A stretch of 64,000 nt of DNA from Halohasta litorea (GCF_024494645.1 NZ_JANHDJ010000003.1:1-64000), one strand, 5' to 3'. Shown: positions 39,380 to 55,642, counted from the stretch's first letter. The notes: generated by a model from the sequence alone, not told the origin. Numbers and translations are program-made.

Positions 39380-40231
39380 TTACTCCGTGAGCGTGAGACA
39401 GCCGAGCGACGCGAACATCGCTTCTTCCGTTCGCACCGTCTCGCTGCCCTGTCGCGGAATCGTATTGAGCCAGCGGTCGAATCCCGGATCGGATTCAACG
39501 TGTTCGTCTGCCGCGACTGCGGCCGAGACTGCCTCGGGTTCAACCCCGAGTATTTCCGGCAGCCCTCTACCGGGCGAACCGAAGGCGACGGTCATCCCCG
39601 CCCGGAGATCCGGGAGGAGTTCGCCGAGCCGAGCGTGGGAGAGTTGCTCCCCGTACTCGGAGGCGGCGATCCGTAGCCTCGATTCGTCGCTGAGGGCGGC
39701 CGAGAGGTCCGTGCATTCGACGTCGAACCCCGCTGTGGGTTCGTCGACGAGGCGTGCACGGACCGGTTCTCTCGAAGAGATCCTGACGGTGACGCGCTCC
39801 CCCTCAGTGGGTGTCGCCATCTCCGGCGGCACCATGAGCGAGATCGGGTGTTGCAGTCCGCAAGTGACCCGAACGCGGCCTTCAGATCCGACCTTGGTCA
39901 CGATTCCTTGGTGTGTAACCGATCCGTCTGGATCGGCTACCGTCTGTGACGAAACCCGGAGCGGAGGGAGTATGCCCGCGAACTGCAGTTCGTCGCGTCT
40001 GCCCCACACCTCGTCTTTGAGGTAGGGGGGCGTCGCGGCGTACTGCAGCACAACGCGGACGAACTCTTCGCCCCACCGACGTTCGCCCTCCCGGTCGGGG
40101 AAGACGATGAGTCGGTCGGCCCGGAACACCGCCGCCGCACGGGCGACGTAACCGAGTTTGCGAGTTGCCTCGCGTTTGTCCTCGGCTTCGCGGACGACCG
40201 ACGACGGAACCAGTAGTGTTAGTCCGTCCAT
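39380..40231 (-). CDS. SPOUT-family RNA methyltransferase (putative uridine N3-methyltransferase, C9orf114 type)
   Basis: This is a 283-residue protein with the alpha/beta knot layout of the archaeal SPOUT proteins found just upstream of rpl3: LTLLVPSSVVREAEDKREAT, then RADRLIVFPDREGERRWGEE, and a C-terminal SAM-binding knot with MTVAFGSPGRGLPEILG. An internal OB-like insert (residues about 95-165) includes VTVRISSREPVRARLVDE. Family members methylate RNA or act with tRNA/rRNA; the substrate here is unknown. As first gene of the r-protein operon it may act in ribosome assembly. Confidence 0.8.
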   Translation of the reverse strand: MDGLTLLVPSSVVREAEDKREATRKLGYVARAAAVFRADRLIVFPDREGERRWGEEFVRVVLQYAATPPYLKDEVWGRRDELQFAGILPPLRVSSQTVADPDGSVTHQGIVTKVGSEGRVRVTCGLQHPISLMVPPEMATPTEGERVTVRISSREPVRARLVDEPTAGFDVECTDLSAALSDESRLRIAASEYGEQLSHARLGELLPDLRAGMTVAFGSPGRGLPEILGVEPEAVSAAVAADEHVESDPGFDRWLNTIPRQGSETVRTEEAMFASLGCLTLTE

Positions 40232-44138: not shown

Positions 44139-44209
44139 GCGTCGGTAGTGTAGTGGTATCACGTAACCTTGCCATGGTTACAACCGGGGTTCAAATCCCC
44201 GCCGACGCA
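44139..44209 (+). tRNA. tRNA-Gly (GCC)
   Basis: A 71-base cloverleaf: acceptor strand GCGTCGG pairs with CCGACGC at 44202-44208, and the discriminator base is A. The D-arm contains TAGTGGTA, the anticodon loop is CTTGCCA (anticodon GCC) and the T-arm contains GGTTCAAATCC. No intron and no encoded CCA. Its T-arm/3' end is partly repeated 149 bases downstream. Confidence 0.95.
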
Positions 44210-44217
44210 TGATTTTC

Positions 44218-44274
44218 TCCGGCGACCAACTCACAAGCGGCGCGTCTCGTCGCGCCGCGACTTCTGTCGCCGGA
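44218..44274 (+). repeat. Nested inverted repeats just downstream of tRNA-Gly
   Basis: The outer arms TCCGGCGAC (44218-44226) and GTCGCCGGA (44266-44274) enclose the inner arms GCGGCGCG (44237-44244) and CGCGCCGC (44251-44258) around TCTCGT. All pairings are exact. The structure starts 9 bases after the tRNA and could end or process its transcript. Confidence 0.65.
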
Positions 44275-44289
44275 TGTCTGCGTTTCGCG

Positions 44290-44353
44290 GAATTTGAACT
44301 AGGGAGCGACGCGAACGTAGTGAGCAGAGTGACTGGAGTTCAAATCCCCGCCG
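44290..44353 (+). repeat. Partial tRNA-Gly copy: inverted T-arm, spacer, direct T-arm
   Basis: GTTCAAATCCCCGCCG at 44338-44353 is identical to 44189-44204 of the tRNA. A near-inverted copy, GGAATTTGAACT, lies at 44290-44301. The spacer is a purine-rich run (GAGCGACGCGAACGTAGTGA and on). No D-arm or anticodon arm is present, so this is not a tRNA. It may be an attachment-site relic or a dispersed tRNA-associated element. Confidence 0.7.
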
Positions 44354-44373
44354 CCTCAGTTCGCGTCACCGAC

Positions 44374-44778
44374 TTATCCGCCGCGTCGATCCAGCACTGC
44401 GAGGCCGACGAGCCCCGCCGTAAGAAGCACGAACGCCACCAGCGCGAGGCGTGGAATGGTGAAGATCCCGAGGCCCTGCCACTGGATCGAGCCGCAACCG
44501 AGACCGACCGAACACTGGACACCCGGCGAAAGCTGGAGGGCCGTATGATACGCCGAGACGACGATCCCGAGACTCGACAACGGCAGCGCCGTCTTCCAGA
44601 CCGCACTCCTGCGCTCGACGGTAGCGACACCGAGAATCACCACGAGCGGATACATCAGGATTCGCTGGTACCAACAGAGACCACACGGCGATAAGCCAGC
44701 GATCTCGCTGAAATAGAGGCTGCCGGTGGTCGCCACGATCGCCACCAGTGTACAGCCAGCGAGCAGTCGACGGCGCAT
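44374..44778 (-). CDS. dsbB: DsbB/BdbC-type disulfide bond formation protein
   Basis: This 134-residue membrane protein has four segments. It has the quinone-side pair CGLC (Cys32, Cys35, in SPCGLCWYQRIL) and the second pair Cys89/Cys95 (CSVGLGC) in the outer loop. DsbB re-oxidises a DsbA-like thiol oxidase with quinone. The start at 44778 is chosen because residues upstream in the longer open frame are unlike the family. It is divergent from the thiamine-binding gene. Confidence 0.9.
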   Translation of the reverse strand: MRRRLLAGCTLVAIVATTGSLYFSEIAGLSPCGLCWYQRILMYPLVVILGVATVERRSAVWKTALPLSSLGIVVSAYHTALQLSPGVQCSVGLGCGSIQWQGLGIFTIPRLALVAFVLLTAGLVGLAVLDRRGG

Positions 44779-44856
44779 ACAGGGTTCAATACAGCAGGTT
44801 CGTTTCAATCTTCCGTACCCAGTGGAGTTAGGAGCCGAGAGGTCGACAGTCGACCC

Positions 44857-45168
44857 ATGACTGTCATTGCACTCCTCAGTGTCGCGCCCGTCATCGAAGA
44901 CAGCATGGCCGAAGAGGTCGCTGCGGCGGTTGACGCGCTCGACGACCACGAGATCAGCTACGAGACCAATCCCATGGGCACCGTCATCGAGGCCGAGGAT
45001 ATCGACACCCTGCTGGCAGCCGTTGGGGATGCTCACAAAGCCGTCGACGCCGACCGGGTGAGCACCGTCCTCAAGATCGACGACAAGCGGACCAGCGACC
45101 AGTCGCCAGCCGAAAAGGTCGAGGCCGTCGAGTCGGTGCTCGGTCGGGAAGCACGAAAGAGCGACTGA
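44857..45168 (+). CDS. MTH1187-type thiamine-binding protein
   Basis: This is a 103-residue ferredoxin-like protein: TVIALLSVAPVIEDSMAEEV, then YETNPMGTVIEAEDIDTLLA and a final helix. The PMGTVIE stretch is the family signature (DUF77/Thiamine_BP). Members bind thiamine or related pyrimidines and act in thiamine salvage or sensing. It lies 57 bases before mch on the same strand. Confidence 0.88.
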   Translation: MTVIALLSVAPVIEDSMAEEVAAAVDALDDHEISYETNPMGTVIEAEDIDTLLAAVGDAHKAVDADRVSTVLKIDDKRTSDQSPAEKVEAVESVLGREARKSD

Positions 45169-45225
45169 TCGACTGGCGCGGGCCAACTACGAATCCCTTT
45201 ATGAGACGACGGCCAACCGGAGGGT

Positions 45226-46161
45226 ATGGAGAGTATCAACCGCTCGGCGGTCGAGCTCGTCGACGAGACGCTCGACTTCGCCGAGGAACTCGGCGTCGTC
45301 CCCGCCGAACTCGACTGCGGCGCAACGGTGATCGACTTCGGTGTGGCCGCCGACGGCGGCATCGAGGCCGGGCTCATGTTGGCGGACATCCAGACGGCCG
45401 GGCTCGCAACGACCTACACGCAGATGGATCAGATCGGCGGCGCGCCGATCCCCTACGTCGAACTAACGACTGACCACCCCGCAGTCGCGCTGCTCTGCTC
45501 GCAGAAGGCGGGCTGGGAACTCGACGTCGAGGGGTTCAACGGACTGGGCTCCGGCCCGGCCCGCGCACTCGTCGGCGAGGAGACCGATTTCGAGCGCGTC
45601 GGCTACTACGACGAGTTCGATTTCGCCGTCCTCACCGTCGAATCCATCGATCCCCCGGACGACCGGATCGCCAAACACGTCGCCGAGCGCAGCAACGTCG
45701 AACCGACGAGCCTGTTTTTGCCGACCTACGCCGCCGGATCGACCGCGGGCAGCGTCTCGATGGCCGCCCGCGCCGCCGAACTCGCCGTCTTCCGGCTCTC
45801 GGAACTCGGCTACCCACCGACCGAGATCCTCTCGGCGACCGGTCGGGCCCCGGTCGCGCCGGTCAGCTACAACGAATCGGTCGCCATGGGTCGGACGAAC
45901 GATGCCCTCGCGTATGGCGGGGAGGTCTACTTGCAGGTCCGCGAGGAGTCGAACGTCTTCGATCAGGTTCCCTCCAATGCACGAGAAGAGTACGGCGTCC
46001 CCTTCGAGCGCATCTTCGAGGAGGCCGACTGGGACTTCTACGACGTCGACGAAAGCATCTTCGCGCCCGCAAAGGTCACCATCGACGTGGTCGACGGCGC
46101 GACCTACGTGTTTGGCGAAACCGACGAACAGCTCGTCGCCGAATCGTTCGGCATCCAGTAG
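45226..46161 (+). CDS. mch: Methenyltetrahydromethanopterin cyclohydrolase
   Basis: This is a 311-residue Mch of the methanogen C1 pathway. MESINRSAVELVDETLDFAE, LTTDHPAVALLCSQKAGWEL, the glycine-rich FNGLGSGPARAL and ILSATGRAPVAPVSYNESVA are the family landmarks. Haloarchaea do not make methane, so the enzyme probably serves folate-like C1 interconversion. A CTTTATGAG element about 30 bases upstream suits a leaderless start. The next gene follows after 3 bases. Confidence 0.93.
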   Translation: MESINRSAVELVDETLDFAEELGVVPAELDCGATVIDFGVAADGGIEAGLMLADIQTAGLATTYTQMDQIGGAPIPYVELTTDHPAVALLCSQKAGWELDVEGFNGLGSGPARALVGEETDFERVGYYDEFDFAVLTVESIDPPDDRIAKHVAERSNVEPTSLFLPTYAAGSTAGSVSMAARAAELAVFRLSELGYPPTEILSATGRAPVAPVSYNESVAMGRTNDALAYGGEVYLQVREESNVFDQVPSNAREEYGVPFERIFEEADWDFYDVDESIFAPAKVTIDVVDGATYVFGETDEQLVAESFGIQ

Positions 46162-46164
46162 GCG

Positions 46165-46650
46165 ATGCGGTTCAAGTGGATCGTCGAACCGCCAGCCACG
46201 CTCGATGCGGTGGACGATACACGGCAGGCGATCCCGCTCGTCCCGACTAGCGAGGCCGACTGCCTCCGGCGACTCCTCGACCGCACCACAGAAACCGGCA
46301 TCGCCGACCGAGAGGATGCGAGCGAGTGGCTGACGTTTCTGCGGGCTCTCGGGCTCGTCGACCGAACGACGAGCGGCTACCGTCGAGAGCGGGTCGAACT
46401 CACGGCCGACGAACTGGCCGACAGACTCCGCGACGGGATCTATGGAGCGCGTGAATTATATGATCGTCTGGCGGCTGCCGACGAACCGCTGGCAGTCGAC
46501 GACCTCGACGGGACGGTCGACCTCCCGACGTGGGAACGACACCACCACGCCGACCCCGAGGTGGTTCGGCGGCAGCGGTTGCGGCGGCTCGCCGACTGGT
46601 TCGTGCTGTGTGGCATCGCCGACCGAACCGCTGCTGACTATTATAAGTAG
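46165..46650 (+). CDS. Conserved haloarchaeal protein downstream of mch, unknown function
   Basis: This 161-residue protein starts 3 bases after mch, so it is cotranscribed. Mostly helical, with many Arg and Leu; ADCLRRLLDRTTETGIADRE and EVVRRQRLRRLADWFVLCGI look like paired winged-helix-like modules. WERHHHADPEVV carries three His in a row. No known family is recognised. The link with mch suggests a role in regulating or using C1 metabolism, which is inference. Confidence 0.7.
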   Translation: MRFKWIVEPPATLDAVDDTRQAIPLVPTSEADCLRRLLDRTTETGIADREDASEWLTFLRALGLVDRTTSGYRRERVELTADELADRLRDGIYGARELYDRLAAADEPLAVDDLDGTVDLPTWERHHHADPEVVRRQRLRRLADWFVLCGIADRTAADYYK

Positions 46651-46699
46651 ATAAAGCCTACCGTCGCAAGATTCGGTTGTAGTCGGATGCTACGACGCG

Positions 46700-48304
46700 T
46701 TAGTCGTCGACTGACGTGACGGTCCCCACACCCTTACTCGATCCCTCGCGGAAGACGAACCGCTGGCCCTCCTGGATAAAGTAGGGCCGAAACTTGAACT
46801 CGATCGTCGTGGTCCCGGTATCGCCCGGCAGGAGCTTGCCGCCCTCCGGCGAGAAGACCGCCGTTTCGCTGAGCGTCTCCAGATGAATGACGGGCTCGTA
46901 GCCGTCGGTGATCCGCGTCGGATGGTTCAGGACCATCACCTCCGCCTCGAAGGAACGCACCGGCTCGGGGTCGGCCGCTCGCGGGAGCAGCACCATCCCG
47001 CGTTCGACCTCGCTCTCGGCGACGCCCTTCAGCGCGATGCCGACGATCCGCCCGGCTTTGGCCTCGTCGACCCGGTGGTAGTGCATCTCGATCGACCGGA
47101 CCTCGACCTCGCGGAACCGCCCGTCGGCCATTGGCCCCAGCAGGAGCTCGTCGCCCGCCGAGACGCTCCCGGCATTGATCGTGCCGGAGGCGACCGCCCC
47201 GACGCCGGTGACGTTGTAGGTGCGGTCGATGTACATCTGGAAGGCGCTGTGTTCGTCGGTCGCCCGCTTGGGCAACGTCTCGAACAGTCGGTCGAGGTCT
47301 TCCATCCCGTCGCCGCGGACCGCACTCGTCCGGATGATGGGAACGACCGTCTCGCTCAGCTCGCTGGCGGCGGTTTCGACGCCGTAACGCTCGACGCGCA
47401 GCGGCGTCTTGTCGACGTCCCGCAGCAGCGTCTCGATCTCCTTTTCGACCTCGACGACGCGCTCCGGCGAGACGGCGTCGACTTTCGTCACGGCGACGAT
47501 CGTCGGCAGGTCAGTCGCCAGCAGAATGCCGAGGTGCTCGCGGGTCGTTTTCGTGGGGCCGTCGTCGGCCGCAACAGCGAGGAGTCCGTAATCGATCTTC
47601 TGGCCGACAAGCCCGCGGATCGTCGTCCGCAGCCACGGTTCGTGGCCGACGGTGTCGACGAACGAAACGAGTCGGTTGGCCTCCTGGACCACCCGCGCGC
47701 GATCGGTTTTTCGGTGGGGGTTGTCCATCCGGACGGGATCGCCAGTCTCGTCGAAGCCGTAGACCGCATACGAGAGGTCAGCCGACAGCCCGCGTTCGAC
47801 CTCGTGGGGTTGGACGTCGAGAAAACTCCGCGTGAAGCCATCGCCGTCGTCCGGTTCGCCGGTGACGAGCGAGCCGACGAGCGTGGATTTGCCGTGGTCG
47901 ACGTGGCCCGCCGTCCCGATGACGATATGGCCATTGTCGGCGGTCAGCATCGACCCCTCGCGGATCGTCGCCATCCCGACGAGTCCGTCGTCGCCTGCGC
48001 TCCAGGTGTCGACGTTCTCGATGTGGGCGCCTGCCTCCTCGGCGAGCAGGGAGAGCACGTCCATCGTCTCGGAGAAATCGTCGGGGGCGATCCCGGCGAT
48101 GCCGCCGTCGTCGGTCACCCCGACGACATAGGTGGCCTCGCCATCGCCCGACAGCACCCGGTGGCGGAGTTGGGCCGCCAGACTCTCCATCCGGCCATCG
48201 GCCAGATGGAGTTCCCGGGTAAGCCGTTCTTTGAACTCGATGTGGCCGCCGTCCTGTTCACCGCGCTTGAGGGCCTGCTGCAACGTGGCCCGATCCGCGC
48301 TCAT
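46700..48304 (-). CDS. GTPBP1-family translational GTPase
   Basis: This is a 534-residue EF-Tu-like GTPase. A family N-terminal domain (1-120) precedes the G domain: G1 GHVDHGKS (133-140), G3 DTVGH (217-221, replacing the usual DxPG) and G4 TKVD (273-276). Two beta-barrel domains follow (GVGAVASGTINAGSVSAGDE, RFVFREGSSKGVGTVTSVDD). GTPBP1/2 proteins act in ribosome rescue and mRNA decay in eukaryotes. The archaeal role is unclear. It is divergent from nothing close; mch-operon genes converge with it. Confidence 0.9.
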   Translation of the reverse strand: MSADRATLQQALKRGEQDGGHIEFKERLTRELHLADGRMESLAAQLRHRVLSGDGEATYVVGVTDDGGIAGIAPDDFSETMDVLSLLAEEAGAHIENVDTWSAGDDGLVGMATIREGSMLTADNGHIVIGTAGHVDHGKSTLVGSLVTGEPDDGDGFTRSFLDVQPHEVERGLSADLSYAVYGFDETGDPVRMDNPHRKTDRARVVQEANRLVSFVDTVGHEPWLRTTIRGLVGQKIDYGLLAVAADDGPTKTTREHLGILLATDLPTIVAVTKVDAVSPERVVEVEKEIETLLRDVDKTPLRVERYGVETAASELSETVVPIIRTSAVRGDGMEDLDRLFETLPKRATDEHSAFQMYIDRTYNVTGVGAVASGTINAGSVSAGDELLLGPMADGRFREVEVRSIEMHYHRVDEAKAGRIVGIALKGVAESEVERGMVLLPRAADPEPVRSFEAEVMVLNHPTRITDGYEPVIHLETLSETAVFSPEGGKLLPGDTGTTTIEFKFRPYFIQEGQRFVFREGSSKGVGTVTSVDD

Positions 48305-48402
48305 ACCCGCCGTTTGTCAGGCGACAGTAAAACGCTTTTCATGCCGTGTGTCTCCATACCACAACGGAGTCGACGGTAGCTGACAACGAAATCGTCCCGA
48401 AG

Positions 48403-48936
48403 TCACTCGCTTAGTCGCTCGTAGGCACGACTTACCTTTTTAAATGTCTCCTCGTCGCCGGAGTCGGTATCCGGGTGGTGTTCCTTCGCCTTCCGGCGGT
48501 AGGCGGCTTTTATATCGTCGTCGGTGGCGGCGGCATCGACATCGAGAATCCGGCGGGCCTCCGACGGCGAGGGCGTCGAGCGGTTGGGTTCGCGTGAGGC
48601 TCCGGACGTCCCTGCTCGGCGGCGACCCCGTCGGCGGTTCTGTCGGGCCCGGCGGGCACGCTCGCGGGCGGTGTCACCGTCGGCGGTCCGTCCGCCGAAC
48701 GGTCCAGGATCGAATCCGACGCCACGATCATCGCCGAGGTTCCCAGCGGCGGCCTCGCGGCTGACTCGGTCGCCGAGTTTGCCGCTGGCCTGATACCACA
48801 GCAGGTACGCCGACGCGCCGAACGGGACCGCGACGGCGAGGAAAAAGGGACTGACGACGACCCCGACGATCAGCATGAGGGCTGTGATACCGAACAACAC
48901 CGCCGACACGCCGAGGATGAGCCCGTTTCGGTCCAC
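48403..48936 (-). CDS. Membrane-anchored J-domain protein
   Basis: This 177-residue protein starts at a GTG. Two membrane segments at the N-terminus (about 5-28 and 30-48) are followed by an Arg-rich linker and a C-terminal J domain (122-177), with ARRILDVDAAATDDDIKAAY and the HPD tripeptide at 154-156. It should recruit DnaK to the membrane. An AATTACAATGG element about 25 bases upstream sets the GTG at 48936; the open frame upstream is not protein-like. No grpE/dnaK is nearby. Confidence 0.85.
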   Translation of the reverse strand: MDRNGLILGVSAVLFGITALMLIVGVVVSPFFLAVAVPFGASAYLLWYQASGKLGDRVSREAAAGNLGDDRGVGFDPGPFGGRTADGDTARERARRARQNRRRGRRRAGTSGASREPNRSTPSPSEARRILDVDAAATDDDIKAAYRRKAKEHHPDTDSGDEETFKKVSRAYERLSE

Positions 48937-49083
48937 TGGTTGGGTCGACGTGTTGCACCATTGTAATTCTCTCGGCGGTGCTGGGAGGATGTCCCGAGCA
49001 TCGACCGGCTGGGCATCGATCGTCTCCGACCGGGAGCCGCGGAGAGGGCCAATTTCTTGTCGTGTCGGCCTGTTGAGAGCGAT

Positions 49084-49662
49084 ATGACAGAGATGCCAGC
49101 ACGGACCCCAACGATCGATCCCGAACGGCGGAACGCCGACGCCCACGGCCACGACACCGTCTCGCCGCTGCAGGCGGCGATCATCACCGTCTCGACCTCG
49201 CGGGCCGCCGCCGACGATCCCGAGGACCCTGGCGGCGATCGGATCGAGTCGCTGTTCGAGGCGGCCGACCACAGTGTCGTCGAGCGCCGACTCGTCGCCG
49301 ACGGGATCGGCCCCATACAGCGCACCCTCGACGAGCTCCTGGATGATCCGACCGTCGACCTCGTGATCTGTACCGGGGGAACGGGGCCGACGATCGACGA
49401 CGTGACGCCGGATGCGGTATCGGCTCGGTTCGACCGTGAGCTACCGGGGTTCGGCGAACTGTTCCGTCGGCTCTCCTACGAGGAGATCGGCTCGCGGACG
49501 ATCGCCTCGCGGGCGACCGCCGGGATCGCCCGCGATACGCCCGTGTTCGTGCTGCCGGGAAGCCGGAACGCCGTCGAGCTGGCGACCGAGGCGATCATCT
49601 TAGAGGAGGCCCCCCATCTCATCGGGCTGTCGACCCGTCACCTTATCGTCGAAGACGAGTAA
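49084..49662 (+). CDS. moaB: MoaB/MogA-type molybdopterin biosynthesis protein
   Basis: This 192-residue protein of the MoaB/Mog fold has AAIITVSTSRAAADDPEDPG, the nucleotide/molybdopterin loop ICTGGTGPTIDDVTPDA and a final PGSRNAVELATEAIILEEAP. It adenylylates molybdopterin before metal insertion. With nasA and mobA it would supply cofactor to molybdoenzymes, although it lies 38 kb away. The ATG at 49084 is preferred; the longer frame starts in the J-protein promoter region. Confidence 0.9.
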   Translation: MTEMPARTPTIDPERRNADAHGHDTVSPLQAAIITVSTSRAAADDPEDPGGDRIESLFEAADHSVVERRLVADGIGPIQRTLDELLDDPTVDLVICTGGTGPTIDDVTPDAVSARFDRELPGFGELFRRLSYEEIGSRTIASRATAGIARDTPVFVLPGSRNAVELATEAIILEEAPHLIGLSTRHLIVEDE

Positions 49663-49756
49663 CCGCCAGTCGGTGTCCAACCGCCAACACCACGCGTTTC
49701 TGATTCGTCACAGCCTTTATTGGCTCCGTCGCTGAGTGTCAGTACGGACGACGAAG

Positions 49757-49806
49757 CCACGCGGGAGCCACGGGTCGGCCAGCCGACCCCGACAGCCCCA
49801 GCGTGG
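49757..49806. repeat. Nested inverted repeat upstream of the Gfo/Idh gene
   Basis: The outer arms CCACGC (49757-49762) and GCGTGG (49801-49806) enclose GGGTCGGC (49772-49779) and GCCGACCC (49782-49789) around CA. The right outer arm touches the TATA element for the next gene. A cruciform, an operator or a small RNA are possible readings. Confidence 0.5.
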
Positions 49807-49838
49807 TGTTTATCAACAGGAGTCGTAGAACTACAGTA

Positions 49839-50906
49839 ATGCAGTCTGATTCACCAGCACAGATCGGAATCGTCGGCCTTGGCGGCATCGGCCACTATCA
49901 CGCTGACCTCCTCGCCGACCAGCCCGCCGCCGACCTCGTCGGGGGCGTCGACATCTCGGGCGACGCCAGACGCGCCTTTAGCGAGAAGTACAACGTCTCG
50001 ACCTACGAGCAGGTCGGCGACCTCCTCGATGTGGCTGACGCGCTGTTCGTCACGACACCCAACCGGTTCCACGAGGAGTACACGATCGACGCCCTCGAAG
50101 CGGGCCTCGATGTCCTGCTTGAAAAGCCGCTGGCCCACACTCTCGAAAGTGCCGAGCGGATCGTCGAGGCGGCCCACGCTGCCGAGGGGTTCTGTATGGT
50201 CGGCTTCAACAACCGGTTTTCCGCGCCGGTCGAGGTAGTCAAACAGTATCAGGCCGACGGCCGGTTCGGGGAGTTCTCGCATATCGAGGCCAACTACGTC
50301 CGGCGGCGCGGCATCCCAGGCCGGGGGTCGTGGTTCACCTCCAAGGAGGTCGCCGGTGGCGGCTCGCTGATCGATATCGGCGTCCACGCCATCGACCTGG
50401 CACTCTACTTTCTTGACTTCCCGACGATCACCGAGGTCTCGGGGACCGCCCGCTCGCAGTTCGGCACCCGCGAGGACTACGCCTTCGTCGAGATGTGGGG
50501 CGACGATATCGGCCCCCAAGGGTTCGACGTCGACGATTCGGTCAGCGCCTTCATTCGAACTGCCAAGGGTCAGACCATCTCGCTGGATGTCGCCTGGGCG
50601 GCCAACCGGCCGACAAACGACGAGTTCGTCCTCCGGGGTACCGAGGCCGGAGCGAAATTCGACCGGTCGAGCCACGAGCTAACGGTCTACGAGGACAGCA
50701 AGGCCGGTCGGGACCACCTCACCGACGCCGAAATCGAAACCCGCGCCAGCGACACTCACAAGGCCGAACAGCGGTACTTCATCGACCACATCGGCTCGGG
50801 GACGACCCCCGAGCGAAACACTGTCGAGGAGGGGCTGGCCGTCCAACGGGTGATCGACGCGATCTATCGGTCCTCCGAGGCGGGGCGGGCGATCTCGCTG
50901 GACTGA
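49839..50906 (+). CDS. Gfo/Idh/MocA-family oxidoreductase
   Basis: This is a 355-residue NAD(P)-dependent dehydrogenase: Rossmann motif GIVGLGGIGHYHADLL, the VLLEKPLAHTLESAER lysine region and the C-terminal domain with AGGGSLIDIGVHAIDLALYF. Such enzymes oxidise sugars, inositol or sugar-nucleotide derivatives. A TGTTTATC element about 30 bases before 49839 supports that ATG over an upstream in-frame one at 49803. It converges with the helicase gene. Confidence 0.9.
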   Translation: MQSDSPAQIGIVGLGGIGHYHADLLADQPAADLVGGVDISGDARRAFSEKYNVSTYEQVGDLLDVADALFVTTPNRFHEEYTIDALEAGLDVLLEKPLAHTLESAERIVEAAHAAEGFCMVGFNNRFSAPVEVVKQYQADGRFGEFSHIEANYVRRRGIPGRGSWFTSKEVAGGGSLIDIGVHAIDLALYFLDFPTITEVSGTARSQFGTREDYAFVEMWGDDIGPQGFDVDDSVSAFIRTAKGQTISLDVAWAANRPTNDEFVLRGTEAGAKFDRSSHELTVYEDSKAGRDHLTDAEIETRASDTHKAEQRYFIDHIGSGTTPERNTVEEGLAVQRVIDAIYRSSEAGRAISLD

Positions 50907-50918
50907 GGTTCCAGTCGA

Positions 50919-52979
50919 TTACAGCTCTTCGTCGGCGAGTTCCTGCTCGGCGACGATCTCGTAGGGTGCCAGTCCGTTTCTGATGCCATCCAGGAGCCGG
51001 AAGGCGTCGTCCGGCGAGAGGAAATGCCGGGTGACGACGCGGCCGAGCGGAGTCGGTTCCAGTCCGTCGATGAACTCCCATTCGAGCAGTCGACCGACCG
51101 ACTGCGTGGTGTCGATTTCGCCCAACATCCGGTCGTTGAGTCGCTTTGCCTGTTTGCCCGCGACGGTGACGTTCGCCAGCGTCTCCTCAACGGCGGCGGC
51201 CTCGTCGTAGACGTTTCGGACGTCCTCCATCTCGCCTTTTAAGAGTTTGAACGCGACCTCGTCTTCGGTCATCTCCATCGAGTTGTGGTAGGTGACATCC
51301 GGCTCGATCAACATATACACCGTGCCGCGGTCGTGGTAGTCAGGTCGGCCCGCTCGCCCGAGCATCTGGCTGAACTCCTGGACCGAGAGCCACTCGATGC
51401 CCATCGCGAGGGTATCGAAGATCACCTGCGAGGCCGGGAAGTCGACCCCTGCGGCGAGGGCAGCGGTGGTGACGACCGCCGACAGATCCTGATCCAGGAA
51501 CTGTTTTTCGACCTTCTTCCGCTTTTTGTAGTCGAGACCCGCGTGGTAGGGAGCAGAATCGTACTGGAGCTTTCGGCTGATCGTATGGCAGCGCCGCCGG
51601 GAGTTGGTGAAGATGATCGTCTGGCCCCGGTAGCCCTTCGAGGATTTCTGGTCGAAGGCCCGCTTGACGAGTTTGTTTTCCAGCCGGAGCTTTTCCTGTT
51701 CGTCGGCGAAGGTGACGTGTCGCTCGATGGGGATGGGGCGCTCCTCGAACTCGATGAGCCGCGCGCCGAGTCGACCGGCCAGCCACTCTGGGTTACCGAC
51801 GGTCGCCGAGAGGTAGATCCACTGGGCACCGTCGTATCCACTTTCGGTGCGGTCGGCTCGCTGCTCACAGTAATATTTAAGTCGCGAAATCAGGCCATCG
51901 AGGCGGTGGCCCCGTTCCTCCTCTTTGAGGGTGTGAACCTCGTCAATGACGACCGTTCCGACGTCGCCGAGGTTCTTGCCCGTCCGGAGGGCGTGGTCGA
52001 TCCCCTCGTAGGTGCCGACGATCACGTCGGCGTTGGGGTCGAACTGGCTGCCCGAGTCGGCGATCCGGCTCGCACCGACACGGATCGTTACGTCGAGGCC
52101 GAGTTCGCCGTACTGCTCCTTGAAATCCTCGTGTTTCTGGTTCGCAAGGGCGACAAGCGGCACCAAAAACAGCATCTTGCCCTTGCCCTTCAGCGCGCGG
52201 TCGATCCCGGCCATCTCGCCGACGAGCGTCTTCCCGGTCGCGGTCGCGCTCACGACGAGTTGGTCCTCGCCCTCCAGGAGACCGTTGCGGACCGAGAGGC
52301 TCTGGACCGGGAGCAAGGAGTCAAACCGGGATTCGGTCATCGACTTGAGCCGGGGGTGGAGGTCGAGGTCGGCCGTTTTGACGGGGTCGACGTCGTCGAC
52401 GGTCGCGCTGATTACGTCGAACTGCGTGAGGTCGGGGTCCAGTTCCCCGGACAGCAGGTCGACGATGCGGTCGAGGTCCTGGACCTCCAGGAGGAGATCC
52501 TCAAGGCGGTCTTGCGCCGAGCCGGTGAACTGCCCCTTATATGAGAGCTCACGTTCGAGCTCTTCGACCGCACAGTCGGGGCAGATATGCTCGCGGTCGG
52601 TCTTGATCGCCGTCTCGTCGGTGATCGGCGCATACCGGCCGTCGTTGGCGCAGTACCGACAGGTCCGGACGACCGCGGCATCGAGTTGGTAGCCGTCCAG
52701 GAGCTCCTGGAGCTCCCGGCGGCCCCGTTTCGAGGTCTGCTGGGAAATGCGAATACGGGAAGCGTTGCGCGCGAGATCGACGAACTCGGTCGGGTCCCGA
52801 AGCTCCTCGCTGGAGCCGGTGTTCCGGCGGAACCGCCCCGGCCGTGGGCCAGCGCTCGTCTCCTTGACATCGAGGGAGCCGTGAAAGACGCGAGAGCCGT
52901 TCTTCCGGGCGACGACGCGGTAGCTGTCGCCGCGTTCATGGAGGAACAACGTCTCGACCTGCGCGACCTGCTGAGACAC
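50919..52979 (-). CDS. Ski2-like DEAD/DEAH helicase with zinc finger
   Basis: This is a 686-residue protein. An N-terminal accessory domain (1-100) precedes a zinc finger (Cys107, Cys110, Cys133, Cys136: CRYC and CPDC). The SF2 core has Walker A SATATGKT (244-251), DEVH (346-349), LSATVGNP and QMLGRAGRP (motif VI). A C-terminal winged-helix part follows. The start is set at the GTG 52979 because a GATATACC TATA element lies about 27 bases upstream; open codons to 53066 do not resemble it. It probably remodels nucleic acids in repair or RNA decay. Confidence 0.88.
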   Translation of the reverse strand: MSQQVAQVETLFLHERGDSYRVVARKNGSRVFHGSLDVKETSAGPRPGRFRRNTGSSEELRDPTEFVDLARNASRIRISQQTSKRGRRELQELLDGYQLDAAVVRTCRYCANDGRYAPITDETAIKTDREHICPDCAVEELERELSYKGQFTGSAQDRLEDLLLEVQDLDRIVDLLSGELDPDLTQFDVISATVDDVDPVKTADLDLHPRLKSMTESRFDSLLPVQSLSVRNGLLEGEDQLVVSATATGKTLVGEMAGIDRALKGKGKMLFLVPLVALANQKHEDFKEQYGELGLDVTIRVGASRIADSGSQFDPNADVIVGTYEGIDHALRTGKNLGDVGTVVIDEVHTLKEEERGHRLDGLISRLKYYCEQRADRTESGYDGAQWIYLSATVGNPEWLAGRLGARLIEFEERPIPIERHVTFADEQEKLRLENKLVKRAFDQKSSKGYRGQTIIFTNSRRRCHTISRKLQYDSAPYHAGLDYKKRKKVEKQFLDQDLSAVVTTAALAAGVDFPASQVIFDTLAMGIEWLSVQEFSQMLGRAGRPDYHDRGTVYMLIEPDVTYHNSMEMTEDEVAFKLLKGEMEDVRNVYDEAAAVEETLANVTVAGKQAKRLNDRMLGEIDTTQSVGRLLEWEFIDGLEPTPLGRVVTRHFLSPDDAFRLLDGIRNGLAPYEIVAEQELADEEL

Positions 52980-53095
52980 GCCCGAGGGTAGGCAATCGGG
53001 GTATATCAGCCGTTCGGCTCGGCGTCGCTGGGGGAGAACGAACACAAACGCAATCGACGACCACATTAATACCGACTCGGCGACTAGTTTCGCGT

Positions 53096-54283
53096 ATGCG
53101 TGGCATTCGTCTCGGGAGCGCCTTCGGCATCCCCATCCAGCTCAACTGGACGTTCTTGCTCGTCCTCCCGGTTTTCGCGTGGATCATCGGTTCGGATATC
53201 ATCACACTGGTCGAACTCGTCAACGGAGTTCTCGGGAGTTCCATCGCAACCGAGCCACTCACCGTCGGCTCGCTGCCGTGGCTGCTCGGCTTTGCGGCCG
53301 CAGGCGGGCTGTTTTTCGGCGTCCTCCTCCACGAGTTCGGCCACTCGCTTGTGGCGATGCGCTACGGACTCGAAATCGAGTCGATTACCCTGTGGCTGCT
53401 GGGTGGGGTGGCGAGCTTCCGGGAGATGCCCGAAGACTGGCACAAGGAGTTCACGATTGCCATCGCTGGCCCCGTCGTCAGCGTGCTCGTGGGTATCGTC
53501 TCCTACATCGCTTTTATACTGACGCCCGCGAGCCTCGGTCCGCTACAGTTCGTCCTCGGCTATCTCGCGGTCATGAACGTCACGCTGGCGGTGTTCAATA
53601 TGCTGCCGGGGTTCCCGATGGACGGCGGCCGAGTGTTGCGGGCGCTGCTGGCGCGCAAACGCCCCCACGCGCAGGCGACCCAGCTTGCCGCCGAGGTGGG
53701 CAAGATCTTCGCCTTCCTGCTCGGCATGGTCGGGCTGTTCGCCTTTAGCCCGCTGTTTATCCTGCTTGCGTTCTTCATCTACATCGCCGCATCGGGCGAG
53801 GCCCAGCAGTCGACGGTCAAAGCCGCCTTTCAGGGCGTCACGGTCCGGGACATCATGACGCCGGGCGAGGAGCTCCACGTCGTCGAGGAGGGGACGACGG
53901 TGGCGGAACTCCTCGGTCGAATGTTCACCGAGCGACACACGGGGTATCCGGTGGTCGACACCCGCGGCGAGCTCGTCGGGATGGTCACCCTCGACGACGC
54001 CCGGACGATCCAGGAGATCGAGCGTGACGCCTACCGGGTCGAAGAGGTGATGGAACGCGACGTGAGAAGCATCACCCCCGATGCGGATGCGATCACCGCC
54101 CTGCGGACGATGCAGGAACACGGCGTCGGTCGGCTGCCCGTGGTCGACGAGCGGGGCGACCTGGCGGGAATCATCTCCAGGACGGATCTGATGACTGCGT
54201 TCAACGTGATCCAGAGCCGCGGCGACAACAGCTCGCTCATCCAGTCCGGCGGGTCGACAGCCGATCTGCCGTCGATCCGCTAA
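53096..54283 (+). CDS. Site-2 protease (S2P-type metalloprotease) with two CBS domains
   Basis: This is a 395-residue membrane protein with about six segments. The zinc-protease motif HEFGH is at 79-83 and the second ligand motif MLPGFPMDGG at 169-178 (Asp177). From about 240, two CBS domains follow (VRDIMTPGEELHVVEEGTTV; VMERDVRSITPDADAITALR), which usually bind adenine nucleotides. S2P enzymes cut membrane-tethered regulators inside the bilayer. The gene converges with a membrane-anchored winged-helix regulator, 27 bp away, a candidate substrate. Confidence 0.92.
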   Translation: MRGIRLGSAFGIPIQLNWTFLLVLPVFAWIIGSDIITLVELVNGVLGSSIATEPLTVGSLPWLLGFAAAGGLFFGVLLHEFGHSLVAMRYGLEIESITLWLLGGVASFREMPEDWHKEFTIAIAGPVVSVLVGIVSYIAFILTPASLGPLQFVLGYLAVMNVTLAVFNMLPGFPMDGGRVLRALLARKRPHAQATQLAAEVGKIFAFLLGMVGLFAFSPLFILLAFFIYIAASGEAQQSTVKAAFQGVTVRDIMTPGEELHVVEEGTTVAELLGRMFTERHTGYPVVDTRGELVGMVTLDDARTIQEIERDAYRVEEVMERDVRSITPDADAITALRTMQEHGVGRLPVVDERGDLAGIISRTDLMTAFNVIQSRGDNSSLIQSGGSTADLPSIR

Positions 54284-54310
54284 CTGGCGGCACTCAGCCT
54301 CGAATGGCGG

Positions 54311-54982
54311 CTACTGATCGGAGTCTGCGACCGGAAACGCGACCCGAGAGTCCCGCCGACGCAGGAGGATACCTATGACGACGAGCGCGACCACACAGCC
54401 GAAAAAGAAGACGACGCCCGGTTCGGTCAGGAACTCGACGAGGCCGCCGCCGGTCGCCCCACTGGCTTCGGTTGCGGCGTCGGTCGTCTCAACGCTCATT
54501 GCGCTGGGTCCGGAGGCGGACTCGGCTGCCGACTCCGTGTCGACATACGTCGTCACGAGATACTGGACGAGGAGGCTCGCGAGTCCGAAAATCCCGAGCG
54601 CACCGAGCAGCCGCGTGATGGCGTCTTTGAGTCGGTCGGTCGTCGACTCCCGGCCAGCACAGACGACCAACGCCGACTCGGTCGGTGCGTACACCTTCAT
54701 CTCGGTGCCTTTCTCGGAGTACCAGGTGTCGGCGACAGCGATCAGGTCGGCCTCCGAGAGGTTGTCGAGGTGATACCGGACGTTCTGGACCGTCGTATCG
54801 GTCGCCTCGGCGAGTTCGGCCGCCGGACGCGGCTCCTCGTAGAGCAACGAGAGGATGCGGCGGGCGGTCGACGACGAGAGCGTTTTAAAAACCTCGTCGG
54901 CGGCCGCCTCCGAGATGGAGATTACGTTCGCACCGTCTTGGGTCGGCTCCACGCGGGATGTCAGCGGCAGGAGGCTCTTCAT
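54311..54982 (-). CDS. Membrane-anchored winged-helix (ArsR-like) regulator
   Basis: This is a 223-residue protein. The N-terminal ArsR-like winged helix (about 28-98) has LSSSTARRILSLLYEE, AELAEATDTTVQNVRYHLDN and a wing WYSEKGTEMKVYAP. Two membrane segments follow (about 125-146 and 189-207) joined by a Ser/Thr/Ala-rich outer loop, with RRRD on the inner side. A DNA-binding domain tethered to the membrane is a natural substrate for intramembrane proteolysis. A TATA box at 54989-54997 lies only about 10 bases upstream of the ATG, so a later GTG (54952) is an alternative start. Confidence 0.88.
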   Translation of the reverse strand: MKSLLPLTSRVEPTQDGANVISISEAAADEVFKTLSSSTARRILSLLYEEPRPAAELAEATDTTVQNVRYHLDNLSEADLIAVADTWYSEKGTEMKVYAPTESALVVCAGRESTTDRLKDAITRLLGALGIFGLASLLVQYLVTTYVDTESAAESASGPSAMSVETTDAATEASGATGGGLVEFLTEPGVVFFFGCVVALVVIGILLRRRDSRVAFPVADSDQ

Positions 54983-55140
54983 AGTCGACTTATAAAGAGA
55001 TTCCAACGATATGGGGAATAGTTTGTGGTGGGTGAAGTCGGCATTTGGGTCGGCTCGCCGAACGCTGTCAGCCGGATATACCGAACAGAGAGCATAGACG
55101 AAGACATGAAGAGAAAACCATAACGGTCGCCGGTGTGTCG

Positions 55141-55217
55141 GTGGATGCTACGTCAGCGGGGGACTGAGTAGCGCAGCGGGGCGGGGACATCCACGCGAAA
55201 CCCACCAGCGACGTGGG
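55141..55217 (+). ncRNA. Candidate structured RNA (hairpin cluster)
   Basis: Outer arms GTGGATG (55141-55147) and CATCCAC (55188-55194) enclose GCTAC/GTAGC (55147-55151, 55168-55172) and TCAG/CTGA around CGGGGGA. A second hairpin, CCCAC (55201-55205) with GTGGG (55213-55217), follows at once. The strand and limits are guesses and the GC-rich DNA favours chance pairing, so confidence is low. Confidence 0.3.
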
Positions 55218-55451
55218 GAGGGCAGACAGACCGAGGGACAACAGCACCGATGGAGGGGAGGGCCGATGGCGCTGGTCCCGGTATCTGCATCTTAAGGCAA
55301 GTCTTTGGGATACTAAACGATTCAGCCTAAGTGAGTAGGCAGAGTTATTGTTAGATACCAATCATCATAGCCCAGTTGCGCCGCTCGCGGTCTGGGTTGG
55401 TCCACTGTGCTGCAGATGGTCGTTGGTCTCCTGGATGAGTACTCCGAAAGA

Positions 55452-55522
55452 GTCCAGGAGCGAGAATCGAACCTCGGTCGGTCCGCTCGTATTCACTCGC
55501 TTCACTCTCCGCTTCGATTCCC
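55452..55522 (-). repeat. Partial tRNA-His copy: direct T-arm plus inverted copy
   Basis: The 22 bases 55452-55473 match 55569-55590, the 3' end and T-arm of tRNA-His, with one change. A near-inverted copy lies at about 55512-55522 (CTTCGATTCCC). Between them is a purine-rich spacer when read on the minus strand. The arrangement mirrors the copy after tRNA-Gly. Confidence 0.7.
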
Positions 55523-55568: not shown

Positions 55569-55642
55569 GTCCAGGGGCGAGAATCGAACCCGCGTCTCAG
55601 CCTCCACAAGGCTGAAGGATAGTCCACTACCCTACCCCGGAC
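55569..55642 (-). tRNA. tRNA-His (GTG)
   Basis: A 74-base gene on the minus strand. The extra 5' G (base -1) pairs with the discriminator C, as in tRNA-His. The acceptor strand TCCGGGG pairs with CCCTGGA (one G-U pair), the anticodon loop is TTGTGGA (anticodon GTG) and the T-arm contains GGTTCGATTC. No intron and no encoded CCA. A T-rich element about 30-38 bases upstream could be its promoter. Confidence 0.94.

Follow-up and report, generated by a model that had tools for sequence, protein, structure and literature searches.

We analysed a 64,000-nucleotide (nt) stretch of Halohasta litorea DNA (GCF_024494645.1, NZ_JANHDJ010000003.1:1-64000; hereafter the window), part of a 3.81-Mb haloarchaeal genome, in which the genes for tRNA-Gly(gcc) and tRNA-His(gtg) are each followed by a short unit that ends in an echo, a second copy of the end of that same tRNA (Table 1). 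Read in the direction of the tRNA, the order of a unit is the tRNA tail (positions 54-73), hairpin A, an inverted arm T', hairpin B, and the tail 54-73 again without CCA. A model's interpretation of the window from the sequence alone (the sequence-only reading) had taken the two echoes as signs of a dispersed, tRNA-associated element whose plan is constant while its tRNA ends follow the host. The tRNAs and their echoes all proved genuine, and the notion of such an element is fully supported. What had been described as an inverted T-arm copy is an inverted arm indeed, but not an inversion of the whole T-arm: T' is better described as the 5' strand of the T-stem joined to the reverse complement of the T-loop. 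In the Gly unit it is one arm of an inverted repeat, complementary at 11/12 positions. The GAG, GTGA and GCGA words remarked on in the spacer are the two strands of hairpin B; the Gly B spacer reads, by segments, GG-GA-GC-GAC-GC-GA-AC-GTA-GT-GA-GC-AGA-GT-GA-CT, and the predicted fold of the unit has 2x2 loops at tandem G.A mismatches. Minimum-free-energy folding of the two window units alone was not significant (z about 0), so their structural support comes only from comparison. Retro-copying from mature tRNA was rejected as unlikely, since the echoes end at N73 and lack CCA.

Table 1. Parts of the tRNA-Gly and tRNA-His units, in window positions
Feature	Position	Strand	Basis
tRNA-Gly(gcc), anchor, putatively attI-like	44139..44209	+	ARAGORN + Rfam RF00005
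First tail copy, positions 54-73 of tRNA-Gly(gcc)	44190-44209	+	coordinates checked
Hairpin A of Gly cassette, outer stem CTCCGGCGAC...GTCGCCGGA, inner stem GCGGCGCG/CGCGCCGC	44210..44287	+	sequence + fold
T' of Gly unit, CGGAATTTGAA, T-stem 5' strand + reverse complement of T-loop	44288..44298	+	
B spacer of Gly unit, predicted hairpin with tandem G.A mismatches	44299..44338	+	fold + comparison
Echo of tRNA-Gly 54-73, TTCAAATCCCCGCCGCCTCA	44339..44358	+	18/20 identity to tRNA end
tRNA-His(gtg), anchor	55569..55641	-	ARAGORN + Rfam RF00005
First tail copy of tRNA-His(gtg)	55569-55588	-	coordinates checked
Hairpin A of His cassette, TTTCTGCGACGAGCACTCACGCGAGGAGCTGAAA	55524..55568	-	sequence
T' of His cassette, AGGGAATCGAA	55513..55523	-	sequence
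B spacer of His cassette	55472..55512	-	sequence
Echo of tRNA-His 54-73, TTCGATTCTCGCTCCTGGAC	55452..55471	-	19/20 identity

The same anatomy recurs throughout the genome. When at least 16/20 matches to a tRNA's own 20-nt end (positions 54-73) were required within 300 nt of its 3' side, own-tail copies were found behind 17 of the 46 tRNAs of the window genome, against 0.36 expected with the tails of other tRNAs and 0 in shuffled DNA; echoes are thus not confined to the two tRNAs of the window. Among all fetched loci, a set of 292 distinct tRNAs that is unit-enriched through the way of fetching, 163 have a copy of their own positions 61-73 downstream, compared with 15 of 1421 mismatched controls. 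An exact pattern with C ending the inverted arm gave 0 matches in the window genome, this pattern being too strict. A cassette measures about 100 bp and extends from one G53|T54 step of the T-arm to the next T54; units, judged by inspection, consist of hairpins over about 80-200 nt and could hold neither an ordinary gene nor that of an integrase. Hairpin A exists in a short form, GCGAAC...GTGAGC or both strands in swapped order, and in a long form, GCGGCGCG...CGCGCCGC; the long type of the Gly cassette also stands behind tRNA-Ser(cga) and tRNA-Ser(gga) of the window genome. In tandem arrays, which occur for example at tRNA-Ser(tga) of genome G042, two to five units follow one another with borders at 53|54; there are decayed units as well. 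A second hairpin type, CCACTTTTTCCG...CGCAAAAACTTGGGGAAAAAG, which has no T', also lies behind tRNAs and sometimes within arrays (L024, the tRNA-Phe locus of the window genome, L264, L267, L277 and L339).

We then surveyed the distribution of the units. A generic motif pattern was present in 142 of 145 Halobacteria genomes, with 0 for reversed-pattern controls, and one and the same search returned the motif in 17/19 Halobacteria versus 0/101 genomes from the rest of the phylum. Almost all the matches examined in three genomes lie 75-335 nt behind the tRNA whose end they copy. All 15 listed sites of G034 and 22 of the 24 listed sites of G042 follow a listed tRNA, and another G042 site is cut off by a 53-kb insertion. 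The remaining site, G042:889319, at first an orphan, adjoins a tRNA-like T-arm, probably that of an intron-containing tRNA missed by the search; the match in Actinarchaeum halophilum is only apparently non-haloarchaeal, this name being a synonym of Halocatena halophila, class Halobacteria. Scaffold 90 of the metagenome-assembled genome 'Bacteroidetes bacterium QS_9_68_14' (L169) carries a haloarchaeal-type tRNA-Val(tac) with a cassette of the beta type described below, and is probably mis-binned. Phage records gave no match, plasmid records gave one, inside a tRNA array, and viral scans with core-like patterns gave six contigs, of which one provirus contig has a tRNA-Glu unit and the others have no tRNA. 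Off-tRNA GCGAAC...GTGAGC motifs on contig C6, considered as a link to an integrase, were dropped because they have no tRNA-tail structure. A search of the open-access literature returned no earlier description of these tRNA-end cassettes.

The spacers share much more than base composition: comparison shows them to be families of hairpins that covary and contain tandem G.A mismatches. We chose one 26-nt B core (beta) and scanned it in named genomes, which yielded 115 stretches, essentially all haloarchaeal. Among 83 beta-core sites examined, 70 lie in sense orientation 39-291 nt 3' of a tRNA, 1 is antisense, and 12 have no tRNA within 1 kb. At least five of these 12 have a partial tRNA end just upstream, and in several of them an integrase reading frame comes before this end, so that a larger element lies inserted between the tRNA and the unit. 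For the T'/T stem and the base of B in 62 equally spaced beta units, we counted 158 double-changed pair cells versus 65±9 in column shuffles (maximum 91 in 1000), and 80% of cells are paired versus 68% when shuffled and 27-44% when slid. T' tracks the T-loop of its host, position 57 being C-G in 32 units and T-A in 28. In the T-loop and spacer of the beta units, G.U outnumbers A.C by 52:7, indicating that the tRNA-sense strand is the folded strand. Beyond the T-stem, pairing falls to the background level, which places the acceptor outside the inverted arm. A search of 8 unit loci against Rfam 15 (E<=1) returned tRNA matches only, plus one sub-threshold mascRNA match on a tRNA. Elsewhere in the window, at 39783-39885 (-), Rfam reports an L4-Archaeoglobi ribosomal protein leader (RF03135, 65.9 bits).

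The copies begin at two preferred positions. The leftmost matched tRNA position is bimodal, falling at 52-54 in 164 of 232 copies and at 59-61 in 24; since B ends in G or GG, the true border of the 52-54 class is 53|54. Units of the 59-61 class carry the pyrimidine-rich strand on top, with a mean purine fraction of 0.424 versus 0.579 (Mann-Whitney p 6.5e-11). Purine-strand hairpins thus join at 53|54 and pyrimidine-strand (TC-type) hairpins at 60|61, which are where the 7-nt T-loop begins and ends. A trailer RNA predicts neither the bimodal junctions nor the strand switch, whereas both are expected if a 7-bp overlap can be exchanged at one border or the other, and this is how we read them. Full-size integrase elements likewise begin their right-hand tRNA repeat (attR) at 58-62. 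The point of insertion is directly visible in two natural cases: a plasmid-borne tRNA-Cys is split exactly at 53|54 by A-T'-B, and at Tyr loci part of the tRNA, from the anticodon arm as far as position 53, is copied ahead of the insert. The split tRNA-Cys is a further member of the tRNA array on the Haloarcula halophila plasmid NZ_CP119561.1 (L260, 1858-6673), where 23 predicted tRNA genes surround the gene of a TROVE-domain (Ro60-like) protein.

Congeners differ by the presence or absence of whole cassettes with exact borders, usually adjoining the tRNA. At Gly(ccc), an additional beta cassette separates the tRNA of the congener G003 from a unit that both genomes have (L289 vs L013); at Arg(cct), it is the window genome that has one more unit, of the TC type (L021 vs L302); and the G003 Gly(gcc) locus (L293) has no unit, in contrast to Gly(gcc) of the window. 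Between G042 and G034, cassettes differ at Val(gac) (L337 vs L338), Gly(tcc) (L340 vs L339) and Gly(gcc) (L263 vs L264); Arg(ccg) is empty versus filled (L272 vs L271), being empty in G034; and Asp(gtc) differs in a distal cassette. Five exact differences, each of which may be a gain or a loss, adjoin the tRNA versus one that is distal. The order of modules differs as well, and B modules are shared between loci. At Ala(ggc) of two sister genomes hairpin A is common and the B core differs, and of 48 B modules that have a counterpart at the orthologous tRNA, 22 resemble this counterpart less than they do a B found elsewhere in their own genome, at another tRNA. Some unrelated tRNAs whose acceptor ends differ have identical B modules (Pro/Ser 40/40, Arg(ccg)/Lys 28/28, Arg(cct)/Leu 28/28), and the window Gly B matches that at tRNA-Asp of G003 at 36/40 positions.

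Our favoured explanation, to which we give even weight for and against, is that a site-specific recombinase exchanges gene-less cassettes at the T-loop; T'-B-T would serve as a folded, attC-like site, and the tRNA as an attI-like entry. The anatomy, the match to the host tRNA, the covariation, the two junction positions and the cassette turnover are observed, while the enzyme, the folded-strand step and the direction of change are inferred. Cassettes would be inserted, deleted and exchanged by site-specific recombination with the borders of the 7-nt T-loop as exchange points, and the catalyst would probably be a tyrosine recombinase. T'-B-T would be recognised as a folded single strand, in the common type the tRNA-sense strand, and the tRNA gene would act like the attI of an integron. 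Each insertion would rebuild the tRNA, because the cassette brings its own 54-73, and would leave the previous 54-73 end downstream as the echo. Of the copying mechanisms raised by the sequence-only reading, repeated integration and excision is favoured by the exact presence and absence of units between sister species; template switching is unneeded, because a direct copy follows if each cassette brings 54-73 and displaces the old end. No payload gene was seen, and so the cassettes are most simply regarded as selfish or by-product DNA rather than host machinery. More tentatively, and as something possible rather than probable, we propose a cassette system that works without an integron integrase and uses essential tRNA genes as insertion sites, combining T-loop capture of gene-less cassettes at many different tRNAs via folded single-strand sites, restoration of the tRNA, an outer stem adapted to the host and class-wide persistence.

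Several observations weigh against the cassette explanation. No recombinase is linked to the cassettes: the integron integrase model (IntI, TIGR02249) scored above its curated cut-off in 0/145 Halobacteria genomes, and the 16 assorted PF00589 matches in the window genome include none tied to units. Neither circular nor excised forms of a cassette were seen. Covariation and G.U bias, the basis of the folded-strand step, would be expected of an RNA too. Each cassette difference may be either a gain or a loss. Homologous recombination or gene conversion via 9-20 bp repeats could also give the array shuffling and B sharing. The transfer of a B between tRNAs whose acceptor ends differ is accounted for only if exchange takes place inside the shared T-loop. 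The TC-type units may be a second, separate family rather than one element read on the opposite strand, since full-size elements share the 60-61 junction. As a separate observation on recombinases in the window genome, the 13-kb contig C13 (L051) holds a tRNA cluster (Gln, Ser x3) with a PF00589 recombinase at C13:5506-6018 and resembles the tRNA array of a mobile element, and at C23:602485-604323 (L356) tRNA-Glu(ttc) is followed within 1-2 kb by two opposed tyrosine recombinase genes.

The main rival, which we judge unlikely, is that the units are debris of conventional tRNA integrases, either scars or derivatives, no longer autonomous, of the usual elements that integrate at tRNAs: virus or plasmid integrases would act on double-stranded att sites, mini-elements would be left behind or mobilised in trans, and the hairpins would be attP arms. 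Full-size tyrosine-recombinase elements do use the same tRNA ends (L135 and L137 with Pfam PF00589/PF02899, L149, L210 and L215), their attR starts at 58-62 as in TC-type units, and a 53-kb insertion separates tRNA-Arg(tcg) from its unit in G042. Such elements, however, separate the tRNA from a unit that was already there, and no T'-B adjoins their own attR, so that T'-B-T is not their att site. Moreover, none of the full-size elements found has its junction at 54, of the GA type, and a covarying stem-loop kept class-wide is unexpected of scars. The G042 insertion (L321/L322, 1166485-1221500) places ~53 kb between tRNA-Arg(tcg) and the unit, with a 13-nt attR, CCTGCAACGCCCA; in the congener G034, tRNA-Arg(tcg) and the unit are adjacent, without the ~53-kb insert.

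Less likely, and in our view improbable, is a functional RNA, in which the units would be pre-tRNA 3' trailers with hairpins for processing, termination or stability, spread by tandem duplication and gene conversion. The 70:1 sense orientation of the beta core, the compensatory changes with G.U tolerance on the tRNA-sense strand, and the complementarity of T' to the T-loop of its own tRNA are what such a role would lead one to expect. It is made less likely by antisense TC-type units with a different junction, by the patchy presence of units at the same tRNA among congeners, and by units that now lie as far as 53 kb away from their tRNA; decayed units and the lack of an Rfam match for the units point the same way. 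We hold out least for a process without a dedicated enzyme, in which template switching at the T-arm during replication and short-repeat homologous recombination made and shuffled quasi-palindromes, as it fits the whole-unit tandem duplicates (L205; the Gly and Ser arrays of G042) and the B exchange at 9-12 nt homologies, yet leaves the fixed 53|54 and 60|61 junctions across tRNAs and genera unaccounted for and would neither confine the phenomenon to Halobacteria and tRNAs nor preserve the same core families class-wide.

If the cassette explanation is true, an undescribed DNA element that leaves its tRNA landing sites unharmed would be present in almost every haloarchaeal genome, with copy numbers from several to dozens, and folded-strand recombination would extend beyond integrons. 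The partial tRNA copies in haloarchaeal genomes would be explained, and culturable models such as Haloferax would allow a direct test of why tRNA genes are integration hot spots. Were they no more than integration debris, the units would still document densely how tRNA genes recombine across one class.

Comparison with known systems places the cassettes nearest to integrons in plan. Both have tandem cassettes in one orientation, bounded by structured sites, with a fixed strand bias; exchange would here, too, fall at a G|TT step, and the differences beside the tRNA may reflect entry at an attI-like end. In both, the fold of the site is conserved above its sequence, and the inverted ATTYGAAC ... 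GTTCRAAT found here resembles the integron site core, RYYYAAC ... GTTRRRY. In contrast to integrons, the haloarchaeal cassettes have no gene, and none of the 145 genomes has IntI above the cut-off; membership therefore fails on IntI and on gene content. The entry site here is a tRNA gene whose 3' end is restored by each cassette, and it would be the top strand that folds, in contrast to the bottom strand of integrons. A survey of 6718 archaeal genomes reported attC arrays in nine phyla, with Halobacteria unmentioned in its main text (PMC9668308). The cassettes also share features with tRNA-integrating elements. Elements with SNJ2/pNOB8/XerC-type tyrosine recombinases (reviewed in PMC8371274) likewise target tRNA 3' ends, including the T stem-loop, and leave the tRNA reconstituted or intact, the insert being bounded by its directly repeated 3' end. 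They carry their own integrase and genes, however, while the cassettes are too short to encode an integrase; and the integrase elements seen here, unlike the cassettes, lie between tRNA and unit, usually have an attR of 13-16 nt starting at about 58-62, and have no T'-B at their ends. Finally, the MITEs, PATEs and SMRs of Haloquadratum are, like the present units, short, gene-less, dispersed and palindromic. The published account of them (PMC3119063) gives terminal repeats or palindromes of the IS605 kind, and no anchoring at tRNAs. The units described here differ in that they sit at tRNAs and carry the host tRNA end, their ends following the host tRNA.

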